From Anaerolineales bacterium (GTDB lineage: Bacteria; Chloroflexota; Anaerolineae; 4572-78; J111): DNA of 7,507 nucleotides. The stretch lies in assembly GCA_012032575.1 (NCBI GenBank), contig JAAUSP010000376.1, positions 1 through 7,507 of the forward strand. The letters run 5' to 3'. Position numbers and translations under genes: made by a program. Positions 2,866 to 7,507 of the stretch are shown here, piece after piece; position 1 is the first letter of the stretch, and each line of letters begins with the position of its first letter. A model generated the notes under the pieces. The model ran no database searches. It was given only the letters and a program-made list of their open reading frames with translations, and was not told the origin of the DNA.

Positions 2866-2907
2866 TGCGTGAGCATTCTTCTCACGCATCACGCCTCACG
2901 TATCACG
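2860..2907. repeat. Perfect 14-bp hairpin with duplicated 3' arm over the acyltransferase stop codon
   Basis: The arm GCGTGATGCGTGAG (2860-2873), a 7-nt loop (CATTCTT) and CTCACGCATCACGC (2881-2894) form a perfect 14-bp stem that includes the TGA stop at 2863-2865. The 3' arm is then repeated with one mismatch (2895-2907 against 2881-2893), so the 5' arm can pair with either copy. No T tract follows, so a classical intrinsic terminator is not supported. It may still stop or protect the transcript, or be a mobile palindromic repeat. Confidence 0.7.
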
Positions 2908-2914
2908 GACAGTA

Positions 2915-3002
2915 TAGCTGCTACATAGCTGCTACATAGCTGCTACATAGCTGCTTCCTCACTGCACCGTCACTGCTACGTCACTGCTACGTCACTGCGC
3001 CT
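2915..3002. repeat. Eight in-phase 11-bp tandem repeats, two subtypes
   Basis: Four copies of TAGCTGCTACA (2915, 2926, 2937; the 2948 copy ends TTCC) are followed without any break in phase by four copies of TCACTGCTACG type (2959 ends CACCG; 2970 and 2981 exact; 2992 ends GCGCCT). Shared core is CTGCTAC. The period of 11 bp is close to one DNA helical turn and is not a multiple of 3, so it is not a peptide repeat. The array sits at the junction between GC-rich and AT-rich DNA. Its function is unknown: iteron-like protein-binding array, slippage-derived minisatellite, or insertion hotspot. Confidence 0.8.
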
Positions 3003-3034
3003 TATCGTAAGAGGCATTACATAGAGAAATCTCC

Positions 3035-3063
3035 TTGACGGAGTTGAGGAATGGTTTTATACT
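3035..3063 (+). promoter_or_regulatory. Strong sigma-70/SigA-type promoter upstream of the kinase
   Basis: TTGACG (3035-3040), a 17-bp spacer and TATACT (3058-3063) match consensus at 10 of 12 positions. Transcription would begin near 3070, leaving a leader of about 255 nt before the kinase ATG. The leader contains several dyads, so it may be regulatory, or the promoter may serve a small RNA or lost gene. Confidence 0.55.
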
Positions 3064-3110
3064 GGAATAGGCTGGTAAGTTGGGAAAACGGCTGCATAGA
3101 TTGGGCCAGG

Positions 3111-3210
3111 GCCGGTCTTTTACAGCCAGGTTCTATATAAACCCGCTGTAAACCGGTGTTATACTGCCAGGTGCGGGATAAGATGGAAGATTTTCTGAGT
3201 TATATAGAAC
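3111..3210 (+). other. Structured leader with overlapping dyads upstream of the kinase
   Basis: Three stems can be drawn. CCGG+TTTACAGC (3112-3126, with a 3-nt bulge) pairs with GCTGTAAACCGG (3145-3156). GTTCTATATAA (3130-3140) pairs perfectly with TTATATAGAAC (3200-3210). CCCGC (3142-3146) pairs with GCGGG (3173-3177). The first stem competes with the other two, as in a switching leader. A 20-codon frame (3183-3245, MEDFLSYIEQFQRVNSYIAF) begins inside it after GGGATAAG. No known riboswitch class is recognised. The rest of the kinase leader (3211-3324) holds only a 6-bp hairpin (CCAACT 3287-3292 with AGTTGG 3300-3305) and the ribosome binding site. Confidence 0.4.
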
Positions 3211-3310
3211 AATTCCAGAGAGTCAATAGTTATATTGCTTTTTGAATTTGAGCCTCCAAAGTATTCTTAAAGAATTCTACTACAAGCCAACTATTTCAAA
3301 GTTGGTAAAA

Positions 3311-3317
3311 GAGGTGG
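3311..3317 (+). promoter_or_regulatory. Ribosome binding site of the kinase gene
   Basis: GAGGTGG lies 7 nt before the ATG at 3325, fixing the start. A small hairpin (3287-3305) ends just upstream and leaves the site exposed. Confidence 0.65.
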
Positions 3318-3324
3318 TTTTGTA

Positions 3325-4347
3325 ATGAACGAAATGATTTATCGAGGGCAAACTAGCTCATATCAAATTACTGAGACTAATCCTCTGGCTTATGGTAGAA
3401 TTAGTGTTTTACTTAAAGCTAAGGATGGAAATGGTGGTAGTGTAGTAGTAAAATTATTTCGAGAGGATTTGGAACAGAAACGAGGCGAATACGTTCAAAA
3501 AGATTTTATTAAAGAATTGTTTTCTCTACAAAAATTAGCCCATCCTAATATTCTTCCAATAGTTGATTTCGGTGAAAATACTGGACCGCAATCCGCAACT
3601 TTCTTGGTACTACCGTTTTGCGAGGGCGGGAATCTTAGAAGATTTTTGCTTAACCAAAGCCCATTAACTCTAAATGTAGCATTGCCAATTTTAGAACAGC
3701 TTGCTGTTGCAATCGATTTTGCTCACAGGCAAAGATTTATTCATGGTGACATAAAGCCAGAAAATATCCTTTTCAAAGATGAAAAACAAACTCACCTTTA
3801 CCTTGCAGATTTTGGGATGGCTAAATATTTTCCGGTAGCTGATGAGTTAACTCCACCACCTCCATTAACTCAGGAAGAATTACTAAGTGCTCTTGGCCCA
3901 ACCCTATATTTAAGTCCAGAACAACTGGACGATGGCAAACAGTCTCCAGCATCGGATATATTTGCTTTTTCAATTATTGCGTATGAAATGCTTACAGGGA
4001 AACCGCCTTACGATATTCAGCAATCTACTTACCGTTTACTAAAAGCTAAAATAGAAGGCAATATAATTGATCCATTAGATGTAAACCCACATTTATCTCA
4101 ATCTACGAGAATAGCGTTGTTAAAAGGATTAAGTCTAAACCCTAAAGACCGTCCAGACACGGCGCTAGAATTATGTCAGTTATTAAGAAGCCATACACTT
4201 CCAGAGTCACCCTCGAAAAGCAACTTACACGGTTTTTGGGATTCTTTGACACCTACAAATAAAGTAGCAATCGTTACAGGTACAATCGCAGGAATTACAG
4301 GTGTCATTGTGGCATTGATCAATATTATTCCTGAATTGTTCAAGTAG
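3325..4347 (+). CDS. Hanks-type Ser/Thr protein kinase with C-terminal membrane anchor
   Basis: The 340-residue protein has a kinase domain at about 13-290. Visible elements are VVVK with the ATP-binding lysine K43, the probable alpha-C glutamate E64, the catalytic loop HGDIKPEN (140-147, base D142), DFG (162-164), SPE (197-199), the alpha-F aspartate D211 and the alpha-I arginine R276. HGD replaces HRD, so activation-loop control may be weak. The glycine-rich loop is degenerate: around LAYGRISV (21-28) only one glycine remains. The activation segment carries a Pro run (177-180). A linker (about 291-312) leads to a hydrophobic helix (about 313-335), then a short charged tail, so the kinase should face the cytoplasm on a tail anchor. 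There is no PASTA or other sensor domain. Codons are AT-rich, unlike the left flank, suggesting transfer. An attC-like repeat begins 30 nt downstream. The substrate is unknown; a signalling or defence role is inference. Confidence 0.9.
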   Translation: MNEMIYRGQTSSYQITETNPLAYGRISVLLKAKDGNGGSVVVKLFREDLEQKRGEYVQKDFIKELFSLQKLAHPNILPIVDFGENTGPQSATFLVLPFCEGGNLRRFLLNQSPLTLNVALPILEQLAVAIDFAHRQRFIHGDIKPENILFKDEKQTHLYLADFGMAKYFPVADELTPPPPLTQEELLSALGPTLYLSPEQLDDGKQSPASDIFAFSIIAYEMLTGKPPYDIQQSTYRLLKAKIEGNIIDPLDVNPHLSQSTRIALLKGLSLNPKDRPDTALELCQLLRSHTLPESPSKSNLHGFWDSLTPTNKVAIVTGTIAGITGVIVALINIIPELFK

Positions 4348-4377
4348 AATTTTATAGACATATTGGTGGGGTGCAAT

Positions 4378-4500
4378 ATAACAAAAAATTGTAGCCGAAT
4401 TGCTACCCTTCTTTTTTTGGAAATTGGTTGCGTCCGCGGTGTTGATTTTGGCTTGTAAGTCGGTTTGCCAGCCCGCAATCGGCTAAATTTTGGCGTTATG
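4378..4500 (+). other. attC: Candidate integron attC recombination site (VCR-like)
   Basis: The ends of this 123-nt stretch are imperfect inverted repeats with attC architecture. ATAAC (4378-4382) pairs with GTTAT (4495-4499), the R boxes. AAAATT (4385-4390) pairs with AATTTT (4486-4491). TAGCCGA (4392-4398) pairs with TCGGCTA (4479-4485), and TTGC (4400-4403) with GCAA (4475-4478), the L boxes. A4399 is an unpaired extrahelical base in the 5' arm, a hallmark that sets strand choice in real attC sites. The right end GGCGTTATG, CCGCGGTG (4434-4441) and TTGCCAGCCC (4465-4474) resemble the Vibrio cholerae VCR as I remember it. The site begins 30 nt after the kinase stop, the usual cassette position. 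No integrase gene is in the window, and the R core GTTATGT departs from strict GTTRRRY. Confidence 0.6.
4391..4418 (+). terminator. Possible intrinsic terminator after the kinase gene
   Basis: A short stem GTAGC (4391-4395) / GCTAC (4402-4406) with a 6-nt loop is followed by CCTTC and seven T (4412-4418). The 5-bp stem is weak, and its bases overlap the 5' arm of the attC-like site, so the two structures exclude each other. Confidence 0.4.
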
Positions 4501-4557
4501 TTTTTTCTCGGCGGACAGGTTATACACACTTGGAGCAAAGTCAGATTTGATGTGGCA

Positions 4558-4585
4558 TTGACTATAACCCAGTTTACTCTATAAT
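4558..4585 (+). promoter_or_regulatory. Near-consensus promoter of the restriction-modification operon
   Basis: TTGACT (4558-4563), a 16-bp spacer and TATAAT (4580-4585) match consensus at 11 of 12 positions. Transcription would start near 4592, about 57 nt before the methyltransferase ATG at 4649. It lies after the attC-like site, so the R-M operon carries its own promoter and would not depend on an upstream cassette promoter. I see no C-protein gene or clear operator. Confidence 0.7.
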
Positions 4586-4648
4586 CAGTTGTATTGTTAA
4601 AGACTCATTCGACACGGTTAAGTAAGAAAATTGAACTGTAGGCAGGGT

Positions 4649-6127
4649 ATGAAGCAGCTAACATTGAATTTTGACGAACCGACATTGGTTAGAAACCCAT
4701 CAACTCCTAAAGGATACAAAGGTCTTGCAGGCTTTCATAAATATTGGGGTAAAAAGCCTATTGAAGCTTGGGGATTTTTGATAGAAACCTTAACTCAAGA
4801 GAAGGAAATAATATTAGATCCATTTTTAGGTTCTGGTCTTATTGCTAAAGAGTGTATAGATTTTGATCGTCGCTTTATTGGATTTGATATTAATCCGTTT
4901 AGTATAGAATTAACCAAAGTTTATTTGAACCCGCCAGATTATTTGAAATTGAGACAAGCTCTTGATGATATTGAGAAGCTAGTAAAACCTGATATTGACT
5001 CATTATATCTAACATCAAAAGGTGAAATCGTCACACATTTTCTTTGGGAAAAAGACAAAATTACAAAAGTGTGGACAAAACATAGTGGAAAACGGGTTGA
5101 GATTGTATTATCAAACAAAGAGTTAGCTGACTTTGAATGTGTTGCGAACCATGAAATATCTATTGGTAGAAAGCTAAACTTATTTGATAATTCACGAATT
5201 AATTCTAAAAATGCTATGTCTTTTAATGACCTGTTTACTTATCGGGCATTGATGGCAATAAGCCATCTCATTCATTCTTTTGATCCATACGAAGATAGAG
5301 TAAATAGGGCATTAAAACTTATTTTGACAGCTTCACTTGGACAAATGTCAAAAATGGTTTTTGCTGTAACAAATCGGGGTAAAACTAAAGAACTTGAAAC
5401 AGAGAACATCGAAGTAGGTAGTTGGGTCATCGGTTACTGGCGACCGGAGCAACATTTTGAAATCAACGCCTGGAATTGTTTTGAGAATAAAGCAAACAGG
5501 TTGCTTAAAGCTCTTAAAAGTGGAAACGGTTATTATGTAACCGATATAACGAACTCTTTTCAAGGCTTTTATGATTCTAAAGCTCAATCTTATCTAAGAG
5601 TTGGTGATTCTGAGGTGTTATTGAGTGAAATTCCAGATGAAACAGTAAAGTTGATACTAACTGATCCACCACATGGTGATAGAATACCCTATCTTGAACT
5701 GAGCGAGATGTGGAATGCAATTCTTGATCTTGATGTTAATTTTGAGAATGAACTTGTTGTGTCAAATGCAAAAGGGAGGAATAAAAATTTAGATGAATAT
5801 AATTCAAAACTTTCCTCGATATTTTCTGAATGTAATCGTGTATTAGAACCAGATGGTTTATTGGCAATTATGTTTAATGCACGGTCTTGTGAACATTGGG
5901 ATAGCTTGCACGCTTTGGAGGCAGTAACAGGGTTAGAATATATCGGATGTTACCCAATGGAATATTCCGCAGGTTCTGTTGTTCAAGATAATCGAAAAGG
6001 AAGTTTGAAATCGGATTATGTTCTTTTATACGGTAAGCAAGTTACCAACTTGTATAAAAAGAAAATCATGAAAGTTTTTAATCTAATTGATGGTTGGATG
6101 ATTGAATACCCCAAGAATGGGAAATAA
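4649..6127 (+). CDS. Site-specific DNA methyltransferase (N6-adenine or N4-cytosine) of a type II-like R-M system
   Basis: The enzyme should transfer a methyl group from S-adenosylmethionine to an exocyclic amino group in a specific DNA site, protecting host DNA from the downstream endonuclease. I chose the ATG at 4649 (MKQLTLNFDEP, 492 residues), with AGG at 4640-4642; a TTG at 4631 would add six residues. Numbering from that TTG (498 residues), FHKYWGKKP (35-43) fits motif X, DPFLGSG (63-69) is motif I that binds the cofactor, FIGFDINP (82-89) is motif II, and TDPPHGD (344-350) is catalytic motif IV, followed by IPYLELSEMWN. RVLEPDGLLAIMF (403-415) matches the late conserved strand. The long insert between motifs II and IV (about 100-330) probably holds the target recognition domain. 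DPPH replaces the usual DPPY/F/W. AT-rich codon use differs from the left flank. The next gene starts 2 nt after the stop. The recognition sequence cannot be read from sequence alone. Confidence 0.87.
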   Translation: MKQLTLNFDEPTLVRNPSTPKGYKGLAGFHKYWGKKPIEAWGFLIETLTQEKEIILDPFLGSGLIAKECIDFDRRFIGFDINPFSIELTKVYLNPPDYLKLRQALDDIEKLVKPDIDSLYLTSKGEIVTHFLWEKDKITKVWTKHSGKRVEIVLSNKELADFECVANHEISIGRKLNLFDNSRINSKNAMSFNDLFTYRALMAISHLIHSFDPYEDRVNRALKLILTASLGQMSKMVFAVTNRGKTKELETENIEVGSWVIGYWRPEQHFEINAWNCFENKANRLLKALKSGNGYYVTDITNSFQGFYDSKAQSYLRVGDSEVLLSEIPDETVKLILTDPPHGDRIPYLELSEMWNAILDLDVNFENELVVSNAKGRNKNLDEYNSKLSSIFSECNRVLEPDGLLAIMFNARSCEHWDSLHALEAVTGLEYIGCYPMEYSAGSVVQDNRKGSLKSDYVLLYGKQVTNLYKKKIMKVFNLIDGWMIEYPKNGK

Positions 6128-6129
6128 AA

Positions 6130-6687
6130 ATGCTACGTTTTCAAGAAGCGCTAAACAAATTCAAAAATGACCATATAAGAGAACTTTCATCAACGGACGA
6201 GGGGATGAGATTCCTCAAACTTCGATCTTTGTCAAGAAAATACCAGATGGAGCATTTGATTAAAAAGGTCGGATTAGATTTTGAGGATACCAAATCAAAA
6301 GAATGGCTAAAAAAGTTATACGAATCTGATTTAACAGAGCCGATAATTGAAGAAACTATCCGAGAGTTGTATGAGTTGGAAAGAGAAGAAAGAAGAATAA
6401 AAGAAGACGAACTCGTAAATGAATTGTACAAAGTACAATCGTTTGAATGGGGAGGCTTGTATCAAAACAGTTTAGAAAAAACTATAGTGGATAATTATGT
6501 CAAAAAAATCAGATCCTATGATTTATTAAGTACAGCCATAGAAAATGATTTACATAACAGTATGCGAGCTTTTGTGCTAGCATCGTGGTATAACCACTGG
6601 ACTTCCATTATTATTGAAGATATTTTCAAAGATCATAGAAATGTGATACCGGCAATTGGTCTCGTAAAAAAGATAGATTTTTTGTGA
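6130..6687 (+). CDS. N-terminal part of a type II-like restriction endonuclease, frame broken in the active site
   Basis: This frame gives 185 residues starting 2 nt after the methyltransferase stop. Residues about 60-100 are a Glu/Lys/Arg-rich helix, perhaps a coiled coil. Residues 105-135 (SFEWGGLYQNSLEKTIV...) and 150-183 (LASWYNHWTSIIIEDIFKDH...IPAIGLVKKIDF) look like the start of a PD-(D/E)xK nuclease core, with the helix acids E163/D164 and the first catalytic aspartate D183. The frame then stops at TGA 6685-6687. The missing D-x-K half lies at the very start of the next frame, so the real product is probably about 362 residues after a -1 shift in the T6 tract at 6678-6683. I do not recognise the exact enzyme. 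The nuclease role comes from the rebuilt motif and the methyltransferase next door. Confidence 0.75.
   Translation: MLRFQEALNKFKNDHIRELSSTDEGMRFLKLRSLSRKYQMEHLIKKVGLDFEDTKSKEWLKKLYESDLTEPIIEETIRELYELEREERRIKEDELVNELYKVQSFEWGGLYQNSLEKTIVDNYVKKIRSYDLLSTAIENDLHNSMRAFVLASWYNHWTSIIIEDIFKDHRNVIPAIGLVKKIDFL
6678..6684 (+). other. Slippery heptamer T TTT TTG at the endonuclease frame break
   Basis: In the zero frame the codons are GAT TTT TTG TGA. The heptamer T TTT TTG (6678-6684) fits X XXY YYZ, and a one-base backward slip yields TTT GTG AAC and continues into the DLK half. Downstream there is only a weak 5-bp hairpin (6697-6701 with 6707-6711). Functional recoding is therefore possible but not demonstrated. 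Confidence 0.4.
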
Positions 6688-7220
6688 ACAACAAACCTTT
6701 CGATTTGAAAGTAACATATTTACCTGAAGGATATGTAAAGGATCAACGTAAAAAGCTTGGGCTTCCTCCTGAATTGACAATAATGAAAAACATGGCTCGA
6801 AATTTGAGAATTGTATATGACAGTAATGCTTCCGTTTCATTCTTGATACCGGATTTATGGCGAAAATTGGACGATCACCCAAACAGAAATGCAAAAGAAC
6901 TTGTTGCAGAATTGAAAAAATGTAGAGAGAATATTCTCAATGATTGTATTCAAACCCCAACACAATTGGTAAGATGGCTTTACGAAAATCAAGGAGTACG
7001 TCGTTTTGATGCTTCTAATAGGTTGTTTTTGGTTCTGGTAGACAAAAATAATTTATTTGAATCTTGGAAACTAAAAAGAGCAAAACCATTAATAGCAACC
7101 GTTGTAAATCAATATCTTGATACGGTGGATGATAATAATTTTGGGTTTGAATTGGATTTCTCTTGGGAAGGTAGCAGCTATATTACAGAGTCAGATGCCA
7201 TATTTGTTCTGAAGCAATAA
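6684..7220 (+). CDS. C-terminal part of the restriction endonuclease (DLK active-site half)
   Basis: This frame overlaps the previous one by 4 nt (GTGA) and would begin with GTG at 6684, yielding 178 residues. It opens immediately with NNKPFDLKVTYLPEGYV, where D7 and K9 form the D-x-K of a PD-(D/E)xK nuclease. The matching first aspartate is at the end of the previous frame. Joined, the core reads IDFFVNNKPFDLKVT, with the two acids 9 residues apart, normal spacing for the fold. No convincing Shine-Dalgarno is visible before the GTG, so independent initiation would rely on coupling. The remaining residues (about 20-178) contain no motif I can name and probably complete dimerisation and DNA recognition. 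Alternatives are a true two-subunit enzyme, an inactivated gene, or a sequencing error. No further gene follows on this strand. Confidence 0.72.
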   Translation: MNNKPFDLKVTYLPEGYVKDQRKKLGLPPELTIMKNMARNLRIVYDSNASVSFLIPDLWRKLDDHPNRNAKELVAELKKCRENILNDCIQTPTQLVRWLYENQGVRRFDASNRLFLVLVDKNNLFESWKLKRAKPLIATVVNQYLDTVDDNNFGFELDFSWEGSSYITESDAIFVLKQ

Positions 7221-7507
7221 AAAACATACCGATATAGTACAGTTGTCAAGTACCGGAACCTTAAAATTATAAAAATAGACACAGGTAAAGGCTAAAAAAG
7301 AGACAGCTTGAACCACACCGACCTCAAACCGGAGTTTGAGCGGTCACTTTTGTCAGGAAATGTTCAACTCAGCGACCGGCCAGGTTCAACTCAGGTCGCA
7401 GTTGTCGAAGGCGGCAGGCAGTAAGTCAATGCATGAGAACCCTCATTACATACCACGCTCCACACCTCACGGCCCGAAGCGACCCCACCTTTTATTGAAG
7501 TCAAGTG
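7221..7507. other. Non-coding tail with hairpin and short repeats; possible mobile-element remnant
   Basis: No convincing gene is present on either strand. AT-rich sequence to about 7300 returns to GC-rich sequence. A stem-loop at 7320-7345 (core CTCAAAC 7323-7329 / GTTTGAG 7334-7340, extended by GAC/GTC) is followed by a short T4 and could end transcription of the R-M operon, weakly. GTTCAACTCAG occurs twice with a 22-bp period (7362-7372, 7384-7394), and GCGACC (7372-7377) is inverted as GGTCGC (7394-7399). CAGTTGTC occurs at 7240-7247 and 7399-7406. This cluster resembles the terminal region of an insertion sequence, but no transposase is visible. Confidence 0.35.

Follow-up and report, generated by a model that had tools for sequence, protein, structure and literature searches.

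The window analysed here (the whole stretch of DNA, 7,507 nucleotides of one contig from an Anaerolineales bacterium) carries a long inverted repeat behind a protein kinase gene. Is this repeat an integron attC site, and are the genes on its two sides mobile gene cassettes? The bottom strand of a single-stranded attC site folds into a hairpin, which is oriented by extrahelical bases. Cleavage by the IntI integrase falls between the G and the TT of the R' box, and cassettes leave or enter as circles. A free cassette has its own R'' and R' boxes opposite one another; within an array, the R' is part of the next cassette. Our results indicate that the repeat is very probably an integron attC site joining two mobile cassettes in a GC-rich Anaerolineae chromosome, with no integrase on the contig. 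The mobility, the order of events and the defence role are what we infer from the analysis.

Results

An AT-rich segment in a GC-rich contig

In intervals of 500 bases, the GC content was 0.57-0.62 up to position 3000 and 0.31-0.39 from 3001 to 7250. The fall from about 0.6 to 0.31-0.39 spans the kinase and methyltransferase genes. The gene order in the AT-rich part is the kinase, the repeat, a DNA methyltransferase and a split partner gene. In the 5' flank of the kinase, the GC-rich left part contains genes for a DUF790 protein (640-1908) and an acyltransferase. Two metagenome proteins share 93-95% identity with the DUF790 protein, and a protein named as that of an Anaerolineae bacterium shares 90%, which makes Anaerolineae (Chloroflexota) the most likely host group. 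The DUF790 protein also matched the NCBIfam endonuclease Bax1 models, with scores below their cut-offs. The contig ends at 7507, which leaves 287 bases downstream of the methyltransferase operon.

The repeat has the architecture of an attC site

Direct reading bore out that the two arms are paired over 22 bp in the blocks given by the first-pass annotation, and that the repeat begins 30 nt downstream of the kinase stop codon (4345-4347). The left arm consists of ATAAC (4378-4382), the spacer AA (4383-4384), AAAATT (4385-4390), an unpaired G (4391), TAGCCGA (4392-4398), an unpaired A (4399) and TTGC (4400-4403). The arm therefore has two unpaired bases (G4391 and A4399), not the single one that had been claimed. 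The 'VCR-like' character named in the first-pass annotation refers here to size, which is near that of VCRs. The right arm consists of GCAA (4475-4478), TCGGCTA (4479-4485), AATTTT (4486-4491), the spacer GGC (4492-4494) and GTTAT (4495-4499). Pairing of the R'' and R' boxes, as expected of an attC site, is provided by the outer ATAAC and GTTAT. Direct reading places the AAC core of R'' at 4380-4382 and the GTT core of R' at 4495-4497, both on the plus strand, and the cut presumably falls between G and T of this GTT. The L'' and L' boxes also show the expected features: spacers of 2 and 3 bases, a 6-bp helix, the extra G4391 on the L'' side and a 7-bp helix. The scanners and the covariance model described below both assigned this G as the extrahelical base of the left arm (plus strand).

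A free-geometry scanner ranked the repeat at the top of the window, with a score of 17.5 (spacers of 2 and 3, helices of 6 and 7 bp, one extra base). Two matches as high as this were found in 1500 dinucleotide shuffles of 3001-7260. Real DNA (L001-L080, 1.245 Mb, both strands) gave 22 matches at or above 17.5, which were mostly other inverted repeats without attC geometry. When the canonical spacing was fixed, the repeat scored 18.3, none of the 1500 shuffles got to 17, and the real DNA set contained a single site with a higher score (L013, 19.2). A pair model with fixed register was built from 33 independent attC sites of 16 loci. It gave the repeat 42.0 bits versus 20.1 bits for the best among 2000 shuffles, and its training sites, each left out in turn, scored 18.9 to 70.1. 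On L001-L080 this model returned 14 matches of at least 12 bits, and 2 were returned on shuffled copies.

A covariance model (Infernal, R1) was also made in this analysis from 30 of the 33 sites, which lie around integron integrases elsewhere; the window was excluded. R1 matched 4375-4502 on the plus strand with 35.6 bits and E 6e-7, where the E-values are rough and the training sites were chosen by structure near integrases, not by experiment. A covariance-model search was the check that the first-pass annotation had proposed; the match is significant and lies on the strand that had been predicted. R1 found 0 matches at E≤1 in 27 loci (98,223 bases) that had been picked for reasons other than integrons, and 57 matches at E≤0.01 in 37 Chloroflexota integrase regions, training sites among them. 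The covariance model, the pair model and the canonical register together place the attC site at 4375-4502 (plus strand). Folding energy, which the first-pass annotation had proposed as a check on the bottom strand, was ordinary (DNA z -0.66 on the plus strand and -0.29 on the minus strand), and an Rfam search of the repeat gave no match. Further attC sites had also been looked for, and no second complete one was found on the contig (the next covariance-model match had E 1.5).

The kinase gene and its putative cassette ends

The Ser/Thr protein kinase gene is located at 3325-4347 on the plus strand (Pfam Pkinase, E 1.6e-36). Its product ends in a hydrophobic C-terminal tail, which is conserved in the alignment of 12 homologues (42-49% identity). 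The kinase matched the PADLOC models mad6 and PD-T4-6, and these matches suggest a possible role in defence.

The R'' box GCAATATAAC (4373-4382) pairs at 10 of 10 bases with GTTATATTGC at 3229-3238. Because of this pairing, the kinase cassette was placed at 3230-4495 (plus strand), with putative ends at G3229/T3230 and G4495/T4496. The kinase has nine GTT words on its upstream side, and that at 3229-3231 pairs best, with 7 bases beyond the core. The probability of such a 7-base pairing by chance was 0.0013 in shuffled 2866-3324 and 0.00005 in shuffled 3181-3324. As a control, 49 cassettes from 11 of 12 array loci supplied were examined. Beyond the core, their 5' ends had on average 4.96 bases paired with their own R'' and 2.16 with the array neighbour; the own-end values spanned 0 to 9, which makes the test noisy. 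For the kinase cassette, the own-end pairing was 7 versus an array pairing of 2. Own-end pairing went to 9 bases beyond the core, which makes a match of 12 in all, in 8 of the 49 control cassettes (L189, L179, L174, L181), and none of the 49 paired further.

The kinase thus has what defines a cassette, that is, one gene followed by an attC site and a 5' end that pairs with its own R''. The data of this contig support that the kinase is an integron gene cassette. The earlier proposal that it is, or was, a mobile one is supported as well, the upstream flank carrying the partner of the kinase R'' box; mobility itself is the part that we infer. Matches to the kinase at E≤1e-40 were found in 1 of 301 Chloroflexota genomes, and in none of 247 genomes from the phylum that includes a Desulfobacterales locus or of 229 from the gammaproteobacterial class, in searches that were run without a positive control. 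These searches brought up no example of the kinase as a cassette in another genome.

The methyltransferase-plus-partner operon

The DNA N6/N4 methyltransferase gene is located at 4649-6127 on the plus strand (ATG at 4649, with TTG at 4631 also possible; Pfam N6_N4_Mtase, E 2.3e-19), and the PADLOC model MTase_II matched it. The partner gene was delimited from open reading frames and relatives as two overlapping frames on the plus strand (6130-6687 and 6684-7220). The frame changes near a T run at about 6680. Most relatives have a single frame: of the 61 loci matching both halves, 56 have an undivided partner frame (a few of them short), and 19 of 80 loci were without a usable match to both halves. 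The split may be genuine or may be an error of the assembly.

The partner contains an invariant D-x8-D-x-K, which is located in two consecutive strands of the predicted model (mean pLDDT 92). We take this arrangement to resemble that of PD-(D/E)XK nucleases. The partner is only a candidate restriction nuclease, and neither the libraries nor the structure search gave a match in its support: nothing was over cut-off in Pfam, no sequence match was found in PADLOC, NCBIfam or the PDB, and Foldseek found no match to the model at E≤0.001.

At the partner stop lies AAAAAACATACC (7219-7230, plus strand), a putative mutated R'' box of a second cassette with the core ACC instead of AAC. It agrees at 11 of 12 bases with the reverse complement of 4495-4506, and is the sole such place on the plus strand. 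The chance level of this half-site was about 0.008 (P 0.0076 in random 40-base samples of the AT-rich part). No right half for it was found up to the contig end at 7507. Since the core is changed and the right half is missing, the attC site of the second cassette may be broken, lost, or may never have been there. On this contig the operon is accordingly bounded by a complete attC site upstream and only by a mutated half-site downstream. The first-pass annotation had suggested that the restriction-modification operon may be the next cassette. This suggestion is supported by relatives that adjoin attC sites and by the half-site after the stop. The operon is probably the next cassette, which would extend from 4496 to 7230 on the plus strand.

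Relatives of the operon beside attC sites

Relatives were found by scanning with 22 aligned homologues, and the best 80 of 114 loci (38-67% identical) were searched with the covariance model. In these best 80 of 114 loci, 26 attC sites were found at E≤1 in 10 loci, and 19 sites at E≤0.01 in 6 loci. All 26 matches were on the gene strand. The remaining 70 of the 80 loci were without a match at E≤1. An attC match lay directly beside the operon in 9 of the 80 loci (5 at E≤0.01), and 3 of the loci (2 at E≤0.01) had attC matches at both ends of the operon. The upstream sites end 12-184 nt before the methyltransferase (L011, L038, L039, L056, L076, L077), and the downstream sites begin 2-28 nt past the estimated partner end (L011, L039, L046, L051, L055, L056). 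The half-site at 7219-7230 occupies the position where these downstream sites start. Seven of the 12 operon-adjoining sites were at E≤0.01; the weak ones are those of L038, L076, L077 and L046 and the downstream one of L011. The nine loci with an adjoining site are named as Desulfobacteraceae, Verrucomicrobia, Deltaproteobacteria, Casimicrobiaceae, Desulfobacterales, Sterolibacteriaceae, Chlorobiota, bacterium UASB270 and Candidatus Ozemobacter. The Microcystis wesenbergii locus (L033) has two attC matches, at 6533-6620 (E 2e-5) and 8254-8340 (E 9e-6), which are 1.6 and 3.3 kb away from the methyltransferase relative, on its upstream side.

The state 'beside attC' (10 rows, the window included) was mapped on the methyltransferase tree and required at least 8 changes; 24 of 500 shuffles were as low. 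From these state changes, and with the caution that missed attC sites would inflate their count, the operon appears to move into and out of integrons repeatedly.

Integrases on this contig and in other genomes

No integrase was recognised with Pfam or NCBIfam among the nine open reading frames scanned, so that the cluster is indeed without a visible integrase, as had been described, and does not present the IntI integrase that a complete integron would have along with its attI. The covariance model gave no match to the left of 3230 and the kinase.

The integron integrase family TIGR02249 was over cut-off in at least 42 of 400 Chloroflexota genomes, a lower bound because at most five candidates were scored per genome. 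It was over cut-off in 71 of 185 genomes of a class taken to be gammaproteobacterial from the Parabeggiatoa locus L009. One Chloroflexota class (47 genomes) had no TIGR02249 match at E≤1e-40. The regions around integrase genes contain attC-like sites in the same register as the repeat of the window. Several contigs from such regions break off no more than 1 kb from the integrase, on the side expected to carry the array. The Chloroflexota integrase regions L122-L158 have attC matches, some of which are about 130 nt long.

Discussion

The site of the window shares its register, spacers, left-arm extrahelical base and AAC/GTT cores with the attC sites of chromosomal integrons (Chloroflexota and Gammaproteobacteria arrays), and like them it is right behind a gene, on the strand of that gene. 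Unlike them, it has AT-rich arms and stands alone on the contig. No close sequence relative of it was found among 20 long attC sites compared. Integrase-less attC clusters (CALIN) and single-attC cases likewise have attC sites with no integrase nearby; however, the window has one complete attC (one match at E≤1), below the two or more of the IntegronFinder 2 default for CALIN. The accessible text of PMC9024848 allows single attC sites without an integrase as true positives in IntegronFinder, with two as the default. Insertion of cassettes at attG sites has already been published (Loot et al. 2024, as cited; PMC12901181). By gene context alone the window is similar, with a cassette that adjoins ordinary chromosomal genes and not attI. 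Neither a close relative of the 5' flank nor the empty site of an attG insertion was found.

Integrons of Chloroflexota have also been published, and methylation and restriction genes are described as common cassette cargo in the available parts of PMC8618304 and PMC9668308. Chromosomal integrons have been presented as reservoirs of defence systems (Darracq et al. 2025, as cited in the accessible part of PMC13064858). The window agrees with such cassettes in having a methyltransferase pair as cargo and a kinase that matches PADLOC defence models. It differs from them by the kinase neighbour and by the split of the partner gene, and its defence function is a predicted one. Among open-access literature titles, we found none that reports the kinase or the methyltransferase pair as a cassette.

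In the mechanism that we propose, the AT-rich DNA would be foreign and would consist of the kinase cassette (3230-4495) and the methyltransferase-plus-partner cassette from 4496, joined by the attC site. The second cassette's own attC may have been worn down to the mutated R'' box. An integrase in trans, or one since lost, probably delivered the cassettes. It is highly improbable that the repeat is instead a chance or unrelated inverted repeat, such as a terminator or part of another mobile element. Its ordinary folding energy would fit such an origin, and other inverted repeats in real DNA score similarly with simple scanners, but the covariance-model E of 6e-7 takes sequence and structure together, the strand, extrahelical base and spacers are all correct, and the ends of the kinase cassette match. 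We consider it unlikely, too, that only the kinase is a true cassette, with an unrelated AT-rich defence island beside it and a half-site that arose by chance. The 287 bases behind the operon hold no complete attC, the half-site has a changed core at P about 0.008, and 70 of the 80 relatives lack an attC match, all of which would be expected from this explanation. However, nine of the 80 loci have relatives of the operon that do adjoin attC sites, three of them at both ends, and the half-site sits where the attC of such relatives starts, 2-28 nt past the end of the gene.

The cassette remnant, with one attC, no integrase and defence-type cargo, is oddly placed, with neighbours that are neither a recognised attC nor an integrase. 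Tentatively, and at somewhat less than even chance, a defence-type cassette pair was put into a non-integron Chloroflexota site by an integrase from elsewhere, with the methyltransferase-partner cassette repeatedly entering and leaving integrons across many phyla. A leftover of an ordinary chromosomal integron, whose integrase, attI and other cassettes have either been deleted or are located outside the contig, is a possibility to which we likewise give a little under an even chance. The integrases over cut-off in Chloroflexota genomes argue for such a leftover, as do the contigs that break off close to the integrase on the array side, and integrase-less attC clusters are regarded as degraded integrons in the accessible text of PMC9024848. 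Against it, the 5' flank consists of the DUF790 and acyltransferase genes with no recognised integrase, and no attC match was found left of the kinase.

The analysis indicates that one short contig can be enough to certify a lone attC site and to map cassette ends, since a cassette retains at its 5' end the sequence that pairs with its own R'' box. In addition, it links one methyltransferase-partner family with attC sites in loci named as Desulfobacteraceae, Casimicrobiaceae, Sterolibacteriaceae, Chlorobiota, Verrucomicrobia and others. If the insertion was at a non-integron site, the window would be an environmental example of cassettes that leave integrons and settle defence-type genes in a new host. 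If an integrase from elsewhere did put the pair there, integrons would seed lone defence genes into integron-free genomes.

Edges of the AT-rich part

A strong inverted repeat, perhaps a terminator, lies across the acyltransferase stop (2857-2897, 17-nt arms, 94% complementary). The left edge of the AT-rich part (2903-3001) contains seven tandem 11-nt repeats with 11-nt spacing, in which ATAGCTGCTAC drifts to GTCACTGCTAC. At 7323-7394, where the GC content is rising again, there is a hairpin CTCAAAC/GTTTGAG (7323-7340) together with a direct repeat GTTCAACTCAG (7362 and 7384), and this stretch is a possible right border of the insert.
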